A program made the translations under genes and the position numbers. Under the pieces are notes generated by a model. It ran no database searches, was not told the DNA's origin, and saw only the letters and a program-made list of their open reading frames with translations. Below are positions 29,979-37,478 of a stretch of DNA of 64,000 bases, in pieces. The DNA is from Bacillota bacterium (lineage in GTDB: Bacteria > Bacillota > Sulfobacillia > JAIMAT01). The first letter of the stretch is position 1, and each line of letters starts with the position of its first letter. The DNA lies in NCBI GenBank assembly GCA_029960955.1, contig JASBVS010000037.1, positions 1 to 64,000 on the forward strand, written 5' to 3'.

Positions 29979-31073
29979 CTAGCCCGGCAGCGGGGCGGGA
30001 GACCGCTCCGGAGCCTCCGCCTCGCGCCGTCGCAGCTGGCCGCAAGCCGCGTCGATCCGGCGCCCCAGGGACCGGCGGACCGTCACTTCCACGCCGCTCC
30101 GCTCCAGCACCTGCCGGAAGGCCTCGATCCGCCCGGGCGGCGAGCTGCGGAGCCCGCGGCCGGATTCGTTCAGCGGAATCAGGTTGACGTGGCCGGGCAG
30201 ACCGCGCAGGAGCGTCGCCAGCTCGCGCGCCTGCTCCGGCTCGTCGTTGACGCGGTCGATCATCACGTACTCGAAGGTGAGCCGCCGGCCGGTCCGCGCC
30301 GCGTAGGTCCGCGCCGCCTCCATCAGCCGCGCCAGCGGGTAGCGGTTGTCCATCGGGACCAGCCGCCGGCGCAGCTCGTCGTTGGGCGCGTGGAGCGAGA
30401 CGGCCAGCGTCACCGGGAGCCCTTCCTCCGCCAGGCGCTCGATGGCCGGCGCCAGCCCCGAGGTGGAGAGGGTCATGCGGCGGTAGGAGATCGCCATCCC
30501 CTCCGGCTCGTGCGCCAGCCTCAGGAAGCGGAGCGTCTCCGCGTAGTTCTCCAGCGGCTCCCCCATCCCCATCAGCACCAGGCGGGAGAGGCGCTCGCCA
30601 TGGGGCAGGAGTTCGCGCTGGACCGCCAGCGCCTGCTCGGCCATCTCGCCCGCCGTCAGGTCGCGCCGCTTGCCCCCCAGCGTCGAGGCGCAGAAGCGGC
30701 AGCCCACGTTGCAGCCGACCTGGGTGGAGATGCAGGCGCTGTAGCCGTAGCGGTAGCGCATGCGCACGGTCTCCACCAGCTCGCCGTCGCGCAGGCGGAG
30801 AAGGAGCTTGACCGTGCCGTCCTCCGGATCGACCTGCCGGCGGACCACCTCCGCGGGCGCCAGGGGGAGGCGGCTCTTCAGGCTCGCCCGCCAGGCGGCC
30901 GGCAGGTCGGTCATGGCGTCGAAGTCGGCGACCGCCCGGCCCTGGATCCAGCGCAGCAGCTGGCGGCCCCGGTAGGCCGGCTGGCCCTCGCCGCGCGCGA
31001 AGGCCTCCAGCTCCGCCCGGTTCATGCCGCGCAGGTCGGGCGCCTCGCCCGCCGCCTGCCCCTCCTCCGCCAT
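29979..31073 (-). CDS. rlmN: 23S rRNA (adenine2503-C2)/tRNA (A37) methyltransferase RlmN
   Basis: Radical SAM enzyme that methylates C2 of A2503 in 23S rRNA and A37 of some tRNAs. The 364-residue protein has CNVGCRFCAS (CxxxCxxC cluster site), LVLMGMGEPLENY and HVNLIPLNE. A late Cys in DAACGQL is the probable methyl-carrying residue. It is 3 bp downstream of rsmB. The C-terminus carries a Pro/Ala-rich tail. Confidence 0.96.
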   Translation of the reverse strand: MAEEGQAAGEAPDLRGMNRAELEAFARGEGQPAYRGRQLLRWIQGRAVADFDAMTDLPAAWRASLKSRLPLAPAEVVRRQVDPEDGTVKLLLRLRDGELVETVRMRYRYGYSACISTQVGCNVGCRFCASTLGGKRRDLTAGEMAEQALAVQRELLPHGERLSRLVLMGMGEPLENYAETLRFLRLAHEPEGMAISYRRMTLSTSGLAPAIERLAEEGLPVTLAVSLHAPNDELRRRLVPMDNRYPLARLMEAARTYAARTGRRLTFEYVMIDRVNDEPEQARELATLLRGLPGHVNLIPLNESGRGLRSSPPGRIEAFRQVLERSGVEVTVRRSLGRRIDAACGQLRRREAEAPERSPAPLPG

Positions 31074-31076
31074 CGC

Positions 31077-32456
31077 TCACGCCCCCCTGACCAGGCGGGC
31101 GATGTAATGGCCGTCCAGCCCGTCGCGCTGCGGCAGGAAGAGGATCTCGCCCTCCCGCTCCACCCTGCCCGCCAGCCCTTCCGGCAGGAAGGGCGCCAGC
31201 GCGTCGCGCCGGAAGGCCGGCCATCGCCCCAGGAAGCTCTCCACCGTCCGCTCGTTCTCCTCCGGCTCGAGTGTACACGTCGAGTAGACCAGCGTCCCCC
31301 CGGGACGGACCAGCGGCGCCACCCCGTCCAGGATCTCGGCCTGCAGCCGGGCGGCCGCCGCCACGTCCCGCGGCCGCTTCCTCCAGCGCGCCTCGGGCCG
31401 GCGGTTGAGGACGCCCGTGCCCGTGCAGGGCGCGTCGACCAGCACGCGGTCGAAGGAGGCGGGCTCCAGAAGCGCGGCCAGGCGGCGCGCGTCCTCGGCC
31501 AGCAGGCGGACGGAGCGGAGGCCGAGGCGGCGGGCGTTCTCCTCCACGCGGCGCAGGCGCTCGGCGTCCACGTCGACCGCCAGCACCAGCCCCCGGTCCC
31601 CCGTCTGCTCGGCCAGGTGGGTGGTCTTGCCACCCGGGGCCGCGGCCACGTCCAGCACCCGCTCGCCGGGCCGCGCCCCGACACTCTGGCCGACGAGGAC
31701 GGAGGCCTCCGACTGGACCTGGTACCAGCCCTCCGCCCAGCCGGGCAGCTCGGGCGGAGAGACGCCGCGGACGCGGAGCGCCTGCGGGCTGTACGCTCCC
31801 GCCTCGGCCTCCAGCCCGGCCGCGCGCAGCCGCTCCAGCGCCTCCTCCGGGCGGGCGCGCAGGCGGTTGACCCGCACCGTCAGGGGCGGCGGCGCGTTCA
31901 TGCAGCGCATCAGCCGCTCGGCCTCCTCGCCCCCGTAGCGTTCCACCCAGCGGCGCGCGAGCCAGTCGGGGAAGGAGTGGCGGACGGCCAGCGCCTCCGC
32001 GCTCGACCCCGCGGGCCAGCTCCACTCGCTGCGGCGGCGCAGCGCCTGGCGCAGGACCGCGTTGGCGTAGCCCACGGCCGCCCCCGCGCCGGCGGCGCGG
32101 AGCGCCTCCAGCGTCTCGTGGACGGCCGCGTGTTCGGGCGTGGCCATCTCGCTCAGCTGGAAGAGCGCCAGGCGGAGCGCCCAGCGCAGCGGCGGCTCGA
32201 GGCGCTCCGGCGGCCGGCGAGAGTAGCGGGCCAGCAGGTGGTCCAGGCGCCGGACCAGCCGGACCGTCCCGTAGACCAGCTCGGTGGCCAGGTGGCGGTC
32301 CGCCGGGCGGAGCCCCTCCGCCCGCGCCAGCTCCGCCTCCAGCGCCTCCCGGCTCCGCCGTCCCCGTTCCACCGCCAGGCAGGCGCGGAGCGCCGCCTCG
32401 CGCGCTCCCCCCGCCCCCGGCCGGCCCCGCCCGGGGCCGGCCGCCGCCTCAGCCAA
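31077..32456 (-). CDS. rsmB: 16S rRNA (cytosine967-C5)-methyltransferase RsmB
   Basis: m5C methyltransferase for 16S rRNA C967. The 459-residue protein has an N-terminal NusB-like domain ([20 protein letters not shown]) followed by a Rossmann methyltransferase with [15 protein letters not shown], the Cys of [18 protein letters not shown] and the Cys of [12 protein letters not shown]. The two cysteines are the family pair for catalysis and product release. It overlaps the def-fmt gene by 8 bp. Confidence 0.95.
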
Positions 32457-33969
32457 GCCTTTCGCCCCGTTCGAGCGGGTTGCCGCGCAGGAAGTCGGCC
32501 ATCGACATGCGCCGCCGGCCCGCCGGCTGCACCTCCAGGAGCCGGATCCGCTGGCCTCCGTCCGGCCCGCAGGCGACCACGGCCGAGCGGGCGTCGACCG
32601 CCACCACCTCGCCGGGGGCGGCGCCCGCCGTCCCGCCCGCCGCGGGCCCGCCGGCCGCCTCCGCCGCCGCTGCCGCCTCGGCGCGGAAGACCTTCAGCCG
32701 CTCGCCCCGGCGCAGCGTGTAGGCTCCGGGCCGCGGGCTGAGCGCGCGGATCCGGTTGACCAGCTCGACAGCGGGCCGGCTCCAGTCGAGCCGTTCCTCC
32801 TCCGGCCGGATCTTGGGCGCGCGCGTGGCCAGCGCCTCGTCCTGCGGGGTGGCGACCACCTCCTCGCCGGTGGCGAAGCGGTGGAGCACCTCGATCAGCA
32901 GCTCGGCGCCCGCCGCGGCCAGCTTCGCGCCCAGCGAGCCCGCGTCGTCGTCCTCCTCGACCCGGACGGCCCGCTGCGCCAGCACCTCGCCGGCGTCCAC
33001 CCGCTCCGACATGCGGATGATGCTCACCCCGGTCTCCCTCTCGCCGGCCATCAGCGCGCGCTCGATGGGCGCCGGGCCGCGATAGCGCGGCAGCAGCGAG
33101 GGGTGCACGTTGAGGGCGGCCACCCCGGGCACGGCCAGCACCTCGGGCGGAAGGATGAAGCCGTAGGCCGCGGTGACGATCACGTCCGGGCGGAGCTCGC
33201 GCAGCCGCTCGACGAAGGCCGGATCGCGCGGGTTCTCCGGCTCCAGGACGGTCACGCCGTACTCCTGCGCCTGGCGCTTGACCGGCGAGGGCAGCAGCGC
33301 CTGCCCGCGGCCCCGCCGGCGGTCGGGCTGGGTGACCACCGCGCTCAGCTTGAAGCCGTGGCGCGCCAGGCGACGCAGGACGGTCACCCCGAACTCGGGC
33401 GTGCCCATGAAGACGAGCCGGTAGGCGGTCTCCGGAGGAAGCCGGACCACGTGCTGCGCCTTGTCCACGTAGAGGACGCCGTCCAGGTGGTCCAGCTCGT
33501 GCTGGAAGGCCCGCGCCTTGAAGTCCTCGGCGTCCACCCAGAGGCGCCGCCCCTCGCGGTCGAGGCCGGTCACGCGGACGTGGCGCGCCCGGGTCACCTC
33601 GCCGACGTAGCCGGGTACGCTCAGGCAGCCCTCGTAGCCGGTCTGCTCGCCCTCGGCTTTGAGCAGCTCGGGGTTGATCATCTCGATCAGGCCGTCGCCC
33701 ACGTCGACCACGATCACGCGCAGGTCGACGCCGATCTGGGGCGCCGCCAGGCCGACTCCGTCCGCGTCGTACATGGTGACGGCCATGTCGTCCAGAAGCT
33801 TCCAGATCTGGCGCGTGATCCGCCGCACGGGGCGCGCCTTGCGCCGCACCTCCGGGCGCGTGCTGTCCAGGATGGGCCGGATCGACCCGCCCTCGCGCCG
33901 CCCGCGGTGCGCCGGCGAGGGCCCCTTCGCCTCCTCCTCGCGCTTCGTCTCCATGCCCTGCCCACCCAT
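32449..33969 (-). CDS. Fused peptide deformylase and methionyl-tRNA formyltransferase
   Basis: One 506-residue frame carries two whole enzymes that act at opposite ends of formyl-Met use. Residues about 28-180 are peptide deformylase, with GVGLAAPQ (71-78), EGCLS (113-117) and HELDH (157-161). Residues about 184-506 are Fmt, starting [12 protein letters not shown], with [17 protein letters not shown] (catalytic Asn and His), RVDAGEVL (catalytic Asp) and the C-terminal OB domain. The junction is only 10-15 residues, with no stop or frame change. In most Bacillota def and fmt are adjacent but separate. Start ATG 33969 or 33954. Confidence 0.93.
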
Positions 33970-34006: not shown

Positions 34007-36253
34007 CTAGAGCAGCGAGAGCGGATCGACGTCGACGGCGAGCCGTGCGCCCGCCGCCTCGCGGCCCGCCCGGGCGGCCGCCTCCAGCGCCGCGTCGCGC
34101 AGCGGGCCGACGCGCTCGCCGCTGAGCAGGAGGTGCCAGCGGGCCTGCCCCTTCAGCCTGCCCAGCGGCGCCTCGCTCGGCCCGACCAGCCGCGCCCCGG
34201 CCGGCAGCCGCCGCGCCAGCTCGCCCGCCGCCGCCCGGGCGACCCGCTCCGCCTCCTCCGGCGAGGAAGCCAGGACCAGGAGGCGCACCAGCCTGCGGAA
34301 GGGCGGATACCCCAGCTCCCGGCGGATCGGCAGCTCGACGCGGGCGAAGGCCTCGGGGTCCATGCGCAGCGCCGCCTGGATGGCATAGTGCTCCGGCGCG
34401 TAACTCTGGATGAGCACCCGGCCCGGCCGCTCGCCCCGCCCCGCCCGGCCGGCCGCCTGGGTGAGCAGCTGGAAGGTGCGCTCGGCCGCCCGGAAGTCGG
34501 GCAGGTTGAGCGCCGTGTCGGCGTTGACCACCCCCACCAGCGTGACGCCGCCCACGTCCCACCCCTTGGCCACCATCTGCGTCCCCACCAGGACGTCCGC
34601 CTCGCCGCGCAGGAAGCGCCGGTAGATCGCCTCGTGGGAGCCCTTCCTGACGGTGCTGTCGGCGTCCATGCGCAGCACCCGCGCCGCGGGCCAGCGCCGG
34701 GCCAGCTCCTCCTCCACGCGCTGCGTGCCGGACCCATGGTAGCCGAGCGCGCTCCCCCCGCAGGCGGGGCAGCGGCTGGGCGGCCGCTCCGCCCAGCCGC
34801 AGTAGTGGCAGCGGAGGAGCGCCTGGTCGGCGTGGTAGGCGAGCGAGACCGCGCACTTCGGGCAGCGCAGGACGTGGCCGCACTCCCGGCAGAGGACGAA
34901 GGTGTGGAAGCCGCGCCGGTTGAGCAGGAGCACCGCCTGCTCGCGGCGCGCCAGCACCTCGTCCAGCGCCTCGGCCAGCCGGCGGCTGAAGAGCGAGCGG
35001 TTCCCCTCGGCCAGCTCCCGGCGCATGTCCACCGCCTCGGCGGCCGGCAGCGGCCTCCCGCCCACCCGCTCGGGCAGGCGGAGGAGCCGGTAGCGGCCGC
35101 GCTGCGCCTCGGCCAGCGACTCCAGGGCGGGCGTCGCGCTGCCCAGGAGGACCGGGCAGCCCGCCCTCCGCGCCCGCTCCAGGGCGACCGAGCGGGCGTG
35201 GTAGCGGGGCGTCTCCTCCTGCTTGTAGCTGGCTTCCTGCTCCTCGTCGACCACGATCAGGCCGAGGCGCCGGCAGGGCGCGAAGACGGCCGAGCGCGCC
35301 CCCACCACCAGGTCCGCCTCGCCCCGGCGGACGCGCCACCACTCGTCGTACCGCTCGCCGTCGCCCAGGCCGCTGTGGAAGACCGCCACCCGGTCGCCGA
35401 AGCGCGCGCGGAAGCGGGCCACCGTCTGGGGCGTCAACGCGATCTCGGGCACCAGCACGATCGCCTGCCGCCCCGCCGCCAGGACCGCCTCGAGCGCGCG
35501 CAGGTAGACCTCGGTCTTGCCGCTCCCGGTCACGCCCTGCAGAAGGAAGACGGCGGGCGAACCGCTCTCCACCGCCTCGCGCACCGCCTGCACCGCCCGC
35601 TCCTGCGCGGGGGTGAGCGGCGGCCGCCGGTCGGCCTCGGCCGGCTCCGACCAGGGGCTCCTCTCCAGCGCGCGCCGCTCGACGGCCAGGAGGCCGGCAC
35701 GCACCATGGCCCGCAGGGTGGCCGCGCTCACCCCGGCGGCCCGCTCCAGCTCCCGCCGGCGCCAGGGGCCGGGCGAGCGCCGCAAGAGCTCCAGGACGCG
35801 GCGTCGCGCGGGCGCCGCGGCGTGCTCCGCTTCCTGCTCCGGGGAGGGGAAGGCGGGGCCGGGAGCGAGCATCTCCTCCGTCCGCCGGCGGATCCGGTCG
35901 CCGCGCAGGCCCGCGGGCAGCATCACGCGGAGAGCCTGGACCAGCGTCGTACCGTAGGCGTGCGCGCACCACCGCGCCAGCTCCAGCGCCTCCGGGGTGA
36001 GCGCGGGCACCGGGTCCAGGACGGCCGCGATGGGCCGGACGCGCTCGGGCGGCACCGAGGGCTCGCGGCGCAGCTCGATGACGAAGCCCTCGCGCCAGCT
36101 GCGGCCGAAGGGGACGCGCACCCGCCAGCCGGGCCGGAGGCGGCCGATCCACTCGGGCGGTATCCAGTAGTCGAAGAGGCGGTCGGTGGCGGCCGCGGCG
36201 ATGTCGACGGCGACGGCCGCCGTGCGCGGCGCCTCGCCCGCCCCGGGGTTCAC
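34007..36253 (-). CDS. priA: Primosomal protein N' (replication restart helicase PriA)
   Basis: DEAH-type helicase that reloads the replisome at repaired forks. The 748-residue protein has an N-terminal DNA-binding domain ([12 protein letters not shown]), Walker [12 protein letters not shown], motif [16 protein letters not shown] and a zinc-binding insert with [13 protein letters not shown] and [27 protein letters not shown] and a C-terminal domain ending VDVDPLSLL follow. Motif II reads DEEQ where DEEH is usual. GTG 36253 overlaps the rpoZ stop (GTGA). coaBC, which lies between these genes in Bacillus, is absent. Confidence 0.96.
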
Positions 36254-36459
36254 TCGGTCCCGCTCACCTCGTAGGTGACCTTGCCCTCGGCGATCTCCTT
36301 CAGCGCGATCACCACGGGCTTGGAGCCCGGCTTGGCCACCGCCGGGGCCGCCCCCTCCAGCAGCTGGCGGGCGCGCTGCGCGGCCACGTTGACGACCGCG
36401 TACTTGCGCGGCATGGCGGCCAGCACCTCTTCCAGCGTCGGATCCAGTCGACTCTCCAA
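36250..36459 (-). CDS. rpoZ: RNA polymerase omega subunit
   Basis: Small assembly subunit of RNA polymerase, 69 residues, with KYAVVNVAAQRARQLLEG and PVVIALKEIAEGKVTYE. Start TTG 36459 with AGGAG 9 bases upstream. It lies between gmk (7 bp upstream) and priA (4-bp overlap), the standard Bacillota order. Confidence 0.95.
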   Translation of the reverse strand: MESRLDPTLEEVLAAMPRKYAVVNVAAQRARQLLEGAAPAVAKPGSKPVVIALKEIAEGKVTYEVSGTE

Positions 36460-36465
36460 TCCGTC

Positions 36466-37167
36466 TCACTCCTCTCCCAGCGGTCGAAGCGGCGCGGAGA
36501 GCGCCTCGCCCGCCGGCTCCTCCCCGGGGAGCGGCGGGGAGCCGCCGGCGAGCCGGCGCCAGGCGCGGCAGTGCTCGGCGCGCCGGATCACCTCCAGCAG
36601 CTCGGCCGCCCGCTCGACCTCGTCGTTGACCAGCGCGTAGTCGTACTCGCCGATGTAGCCCGGCTCGCGGGCCGCGTCGGCCAGGCGCATCTCCCGCCTC
36701 TCCGGGCTCCCGCTGCCGCGCAGGATCATGCGCCGGCGGAGCTCCCGGGACGAGGGAGGAAGGATGAAGACGAAGACCGCCTCGGGATAGGCGGCCTTCA
36801 GGCTCATGGCGCCCTGGACGTCCTTCTCGACCACGACGTCGACGCCCCGCCCCAGCCACTCCTCCATGGGCTGGCGCGGCGTGCCGTAGGCGTGGTCGCC
36901 GACGCGCGCCCACTCCGCCAGCTCCCCCGAGCGCCGCCTGGCCTCGAACGCCTCCTCCTCCAGGAAGACGTAGTCGACCCCCGCGCGTTCGCCGGCTCGC
37001 GGCGCACGCGTCGTCACCGAGGGCGCGAAGCGCACCTCCGGATGGCGGGCCAGCCACGCCTTCCGCACCGATCCCTTCCCGGCTCCGCTCGGTCCCGAAA
37101 GAACGAAGAGCAGCCCCGGAAAACGGGGCCTGGGAGAAGCGCCCGCCGGACCGGCCGCCGCGCTCAC
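36466..37167 (-). CDS. gmk: Guanylate kinase
   Basis: Converts GMP to GDP. The 233-residue protein has the P-loop [28 protein letters not shown] (GMP binding), [15 protein letters not shown] and the lid [11 protein letters not shown]. The usual EIDVQGA reads EKDVQGA here. The C-terminal 35 residues ([19 protein letters not shown]) extend past the normal end. GTG 37167 overlaps the remA stop. Confidence 0.94.
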
Positions 37168-37478
37168 TGCTCCCGATCCACCTCCATCAGCTCTTCGGGC
37201 GTCGAGTTGGCCGCCGCCTCCCGCTCGACGGCGCCCTCGTGGGTCAACATGCGGTGGGCCACCGTCTCCGGCTGGATGGCGGAGAGCACCACGTGCTCGC
37301 TGTCGGTGATGATCACCGCCCGCGTCCGCCGGCCGTAGGTGGCGTCGATCAGCCGCCCGGCATCCCTCGCCTCCTGCACCACCCGCTTGATCGGCGCGGA
37401 CTCGGGGCTGACGATGGCGATCACGCGGTTGGCCGAGATGATGTTGCCGAAGCCGATGTTGATGAGCTTGATCTCCAC
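37164..37478 (-). CDS. remA: RemA/DUF370 family DNA-binding regulator
   Basis: A 104-residue RemA-type protein ([40 protein letters not shown]). In Bacillus RemA forms arc-shaped oligomers that bind DNA and activate biofilm matrix and osmoprotection genes. Its position before gmk-rpoZ matches Bacillus ylzA/remA. ATG 37478 has GGGGAGAGG ahead. About 15 residues longer at the C-terminus than the Bacillus protein. Confidence 0.93.

Follow-up and report, generated by a model that had tools for sequence, protein, structure and literature searches.

The def-fmt gene lies on the minus strand of the 64,000-nucleotide stretch of DNA that we analyzed (the window), between priA upstream and rsmB downstream (Table 1), and it is predicted to encode, on one polypeptide, two enzymes, one that puts the formyl group on the starting methionine and one that takes it off again. 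The gene order is gmk–rpoZ–priA–[def-fmt]–rsmB–rlmN, and the same strand also carries genes for a PP2C phosphatase and a PASTA kinase. In Bacillota, def and fmt usually belong to an operon of the order priA-def-fmt-rsmB. In this phylum coaBC is often found between rpoZ and priA; no coaBC was found here between gmk and priA (36214-36470), where there is only an ORF resembling the omega subunit. Given its listed TTG start, rsmB shares 8 bases with the 3′ end of the fusion gene.

Table 1. Positions in the window of the fusion gene, its parts and its neighbors
Feature	Positions	Strand	Remarks
rlmN	29979..31073	-	Radical_SAM, RlmN_N
rsmB, downstream neighbor	31077..32456	-	NusB and Methyltr_RsmB-F
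def-fmt fusion gene	32449..33969	-	longest ORF, 506 aa
Fmt C-terminal domain (PF02911), residues 386-497	32479..32814	-	Pfam
Fmt catalytic domain (PF00551), residues 185-362	32884..33417	-	Pfam; R221 loop, N287, H289, D325
Junction, residues 174-184	33418..33450	-	7-residue linker with PPE[ST] motif inside
Codon TAC (Tyr183) where a separate fmt would start	33421..33423	-	all three genus genomes
Peptide deformylase domain (PF01327), residues 31-173	33451..33879	-	Pfam and NCBIfam
priA, upstream neighbor	34007..36250, start approximate	-	PriA_3primeBD, Zn_ribbon_PriA, PriA_C
Omega-like ORF	36250-36459	-	69 codons, TTG start; rpoZ by eye
gmk (guanylate kinase)	36466-37167	-	
RemA-like gene	37164–37478	-	

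An earlier reading made from the letters of the sequence only had described one uninterrupted frame of 506 codons holding all three peptide deformylase (PDF) motifs, followed after 10-15 residues by a complete methionyl-tRNA formyltransferase (Fmt) with its catalytic Asn, His and Asp, and each part of this description was borne out. The minus-strand ORF has zero internal stops. The PDF motifs are GxGLAAxQ (residues 71-78), EGCLS (113-117) and HExDH (157-161), contributing Q78, E113-G-C115-L-S and H157-E158-L-D-H161; the catalytic residues of Fmt are N287, H289 and D325, and 11 residues separate the Pfam domains of the two enzymes. As for the start, the ORF has its first ATG immediately beside a GGAAGGAG (33954-33969). 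Since this ATG, at 33969, is absent from both G001 and G002, the other genomes of the genus, whereas an ATG at 33954 is present in all three, the true start is probably the second ATG, which would give a protein of 501 aa.

Pfam matched Pep_deformylase with 156.1 bits against a cut-off of 22.8, Formyl_trans_N with 146.6 bits and Formyl_trans_C with 85 bits, the latter two (PF00551 and PF02911) at nearly full length. The NCBIfam models gave 145.1 bits for TIGR00079 (pept_deformyl; cut-off 103.95) and 272.7 bits for TIGR00460 (fmt; equivalog cut-off 201.5), and enzymes of the ArnA, PurN and PurU types were ruled out by scores far under their respective cut-offs. Residues Q78, E113, C115, H157, E158 and H161 of the deformylase and, in Fmt, N287, H289, D325 and R221 of the basic loop by the acceptor stem are invariant in 71/71 aligned fused proteins, a pattern expected only with both activities under selection, suggesting that both would be working in the fusion protein. 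The AlphaFold2 model (mean pLDDT 89.3, pTM 0.65) has two well-folded domains, with most of both above 90, and a less confident stretch joining them (about 74-85). Its closest solved fold is the Fmt of B. anthracis (4iqf; TM 0.94 over the target), onto which the Fmt half superposes. The structure alignment of the domains included in-frame read-through def/fmt pairs, as an alignment aid only.

In this genome (2.26 Mb, about 93% complete), PF01327 matches once and full-length Fmt also once, in each case within def-fmt; the fusion is likewise the sole PDF of G001 and G002 (96% complete), with one PF01327 match each. We consider it very probable, from sequence and domain content, that the product of the gene is a single house-keeping enzyme with two activities, PDF and Fmt. 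The C-terminal half would act as an ordinary Fmt, transferring formyl from 10-formyl-THF onto initiator Met-tRNA, and the N-terminal half would be an ordinary metallo-deformylase, with Cys115, His157 and His161 as metal ligands and Glu158 as the catalytic residue, deformylating nascent chains after initiation, once off the ribosome. Because no other PDF or Fmt was found in the genome, the fusion would carry the whole formylation/deformylation cycle of this organism. The main consequence would be that the two activities are necessarily synthesized 1:1; a fixed ratio of synthesis can fairly be expected from one open frame, and we infer that the 1:1 ratio also holds in the cell and that proteolytic separation of the halves is absent. 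Because the two steps belong to different stages and have different substrates, channeling is not expected. The suggestion of the sequence-only reading that the fusion places the deformylase beside initiation complexes finds no support here, in view of the less confident junction and the pTM of the model and of the varying junction lengths described below.

Distribution and origin of the fused frame

Searching for this domain order and mapping its lineage, we found the fusion spread across much of this class, a high-GC one within Bacillota. Our collection held 154 genomes of the class, from 48 families and 88 genera, and whole-genome matches with ORF analysis of the loci placed the fused frame in 72 genomes, 48 genera and 25/48 families, one of which (f47) is doubtful, being represented by one bin that is 7% contaminated and has a second fmt. 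Among the loci examined, fused and separate genes are never mixed within a family, f47 excepted; f23 is one of the fused families, f7 and f22 are unfused. In the bin of that family (G149), the fused def-fmt is on contig C12 and the separate fmt on contig C39, and the contamination suggests a mixed bin. In G017 the deformylase part of the fusion is split over two frames (L154), probably through an assembly frameshift or in a broken gene.

In 53/62 fused genomes tested, no further PDF accompanies the fusion, whose occurrence in this class is widespread and probably obligate. Extra PDFs among the fused genomes are mainly in family f5, where G006, G092, G047, G084, G076 and G031 carry a second, separate PDF beside the fused def-fmt, as Exiguobacterium does; this second PDF is possibly an accessory deformylase lineage.

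Outside the class, we found no stop-free def–fmt match over both domains among the matches listed for a 399-genome sample of the phylum; fusions whose long linkers break the alignment into two pieces could escape this test. Of 400 Bacilli surveyed, one family (f192) was fused; this is presumably Exiguobacterium, a positive control for the published fusion. A scan of named genomes, a biased sample, returned only separate or unpaired def and fmt among at least 80 loci listed. In relatives outside the class, def and fmt are mostly 3–27 bases apart, often in frame, with a stop between them, so the statement made at first reading that they are usually adjacent but separate genes holds for most relatives. 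A published survey found def and fmt co-localized in 58% of species (PMC12690207).

With def and fmt often in frame and only a stop between them, the loss of one stop codon is enough for fusion, and because the fusion occupies the usual def–fmt operon position, it most simply and most likely arose when def, in the priA-def-fmt-rsmB operon, lost its stop codon. The start codon of fmt would then have decayed, to Leu, Tyr or another residue. How often this happened was addressed with a two-domain tree, which has 9-11 label changes in the class on a weak backbone. When the class fusions were forced into one clade, the likelihood was 2.4 units better than that of the free tree (AU p 0.53), and both one origin followed by splits and several origins are allowed. 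In the best tree the class fusions and the Exiguobacterium fusion stand apart; a joint clade of the two was 8.1 units worse and was not rejected (AU p 0.44), so that a common origin is allowed. A wider reading would make def-fmt an ancient, obligate enzyme of single origin that runs the full formyl cycle of a large part of the class, is both sole PDF and sole Fmt in most fused families, has a conserved junction in one subset, and was kept for coupling or dosage and not by drift; we regard this as conceivable and, on present data, doubtful.

The junction and alternative readings

The 7-residue junction of this gene is common to about a dozen families, this one included, mostly as PPE[ST]xL[RK]. 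Junction lengths across the class run from 5 to 67 residues (besides 7, they are 5, 9-20 or 26-67), and some of these others are acidic or of low complexity. Because the length varies in this way, a fixed geometry of the two active sites is not general in def-fmt fusions. Acidic, low-complexity stretches are also present in unfused Def proteins of families f35 and f22 (L172, L182, L185 and L189), as C-terminal tails of 66-88 residues past HExxH that end beside fmt.

A physical function beyond the ratio, either Fmt tethered to ribosomes via the deformylase or formylation coupled to deformylation by an interface of the two domains, would be compatible with one bifunctional house-keeping enzyme, as an addition to it. 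The conservation of the short linker in one set of families and the presence of fusions in at least two separate lineages argue for such a function, but the variation of the linker across the class argues against it, and the model, with two confident domains at its pTM, gives no sign of a fixed interface. E. coli PDF docks on ribosomal L22 through a C-terminal helix (PMC8712518), whereas the PDF domain of the fusion has no free tail for such a helix, since Fmt begins there; unfused relatives in other classes are also short-tailed, with 13-28 residues past HExxH. Taking both sides into account, we judge a function of this kind unlikely.

The chain could also be cleaved into two ordinary enzymes once it has been made, in which case the fusion would matter for expression only. 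The lower model confidence of the junction is consistent with cleavage, as are the junctions of 20-67 residues in some families, which are of low complexity and hence probably exposed. However, a junction of only 7 residues, as found here and in the other families that share it, leaves little room for a flexible cut site, and we consider cleavage improbable.

Translation of the one chain together with a separate Fmt made from an internal start is, in our view, very improbable. Many fused members, this gene included, have a GGAG 6 nt ahead of the former Fmt start position, and four genomes (G059 and G031 of f5, G083 and G098 of f25) keep an ATG exactly there. In this genus, however, the former start codon is TAC in 3/3 genomes, so an Fmt start at its usual place would not be possible, and an internal start at this canonical position was rejected. 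The next in-frame ATG, Met188, is within the first beta strand (VFMGTPEF), and a protein beginning there would lack part of the fold. Across the class, the former start codon is ATG, GTG or TTG in just 9 of the 72 fused genes, the commonest replacement being Leu (CTG/CTC). The GGAG itself has gone in G002 (CCCGAG), G022 and G090 through synonymous changes that keep the encoded Pro-Glu, which argues that it is not conserved as a ribosome-binding site; on the same grounds, the PPE motif as a retained Shine-Dalgarno sequence was rejected. In one f5 genome (G031, locus L143), the whole GGAG-6nt-ATG arrangement is intact at the old Fmt start, and this genome might make the fusion plus a free Fmt.

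A false joining of two genes, through sequencing error or misassembly, is practically excluded: a single wrong codon would suffice, but the other two genomes of the genus carry the same fused frame at 82–85% identity, dozens of others have it too, single-contig ones included, no genome of the genus has a stop or frameshift near 33415-33430, the place where the sequence-only reading had pointed to a possible break, and the former start codon has decayed, unlike the outcome of a recent error.

Known systems and the meaning of the fusion

A fusion of def and fmt is an already known kind of gene. PMC12690207 describes it from the four reference genomes of Exiguobacterium, calls it unusual in a set of 5,042 genomes, and records a further PDF in each of the four. 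Complementation was done with the fusion of Exiguobacterium alkaliphilum, which restores normal growth of E. coli Δdef-fmt (PMC12690207, Mol Biol Evol 2025 msaf311). As in our gene, PDF precedes Fmt in one CDS; in contrast, the junction is unlike (TDKLVEQEKPRVVFMG against a different stretch of 21 protein letters), the Exiguobacterium fusion is grouped among Bacilli in the best tree and not with this class, and the second PDF of that genus has no counterpart in this genome, G001 or G002, which have one PF01327 match each. What is new relative to PMC12690207 is therefore the class-wide spread, the different junction and the status of sole deformylase. In the literature searchable to us, which leaves subscription journals and automatic annotations outside, we found no other report of a def-fmt fusion, Thermaerobacter included.

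Compared with the stand-alone enzymes, the N-terminal half matches the PDF models (PF01327, TIGR00079) and the C-terminal half the Fmt model (TIGR00460), each with all catalytic residues kept, but here the two form one polypeptide, and Fmt lacks its own start codon. ArnA-type fusions (PDB 1z7e) also have a Formyl_trans fold within a bifunctional chain; their partner, order and pathway are different, and the ArnA model scored 172 against a cut-off of 777.

Formylation and deformylation of the initiator Met are near-universal steps in bacteria, and PDF is an antibiotic target (actinonin). Loss of fmt is the common route to tolerance of PDF inhibitors in other bacteria. The finding of the def-fmt fusion is modest and not transforming, yet it means that a large lineage appears to depend on the fusion alone, whereas the published case is one genus with a spare PDF. 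It offers natural systems where PDF and Fmt would be synthesized in a fixed ratio, so that the importance of that ratio becomes testable. It also raises the question of whether the PDF domain functions when no Fmt follows it, and the answer would decide whether the fmt-loss route to PDF-inhibitor tolerance is open to these species.
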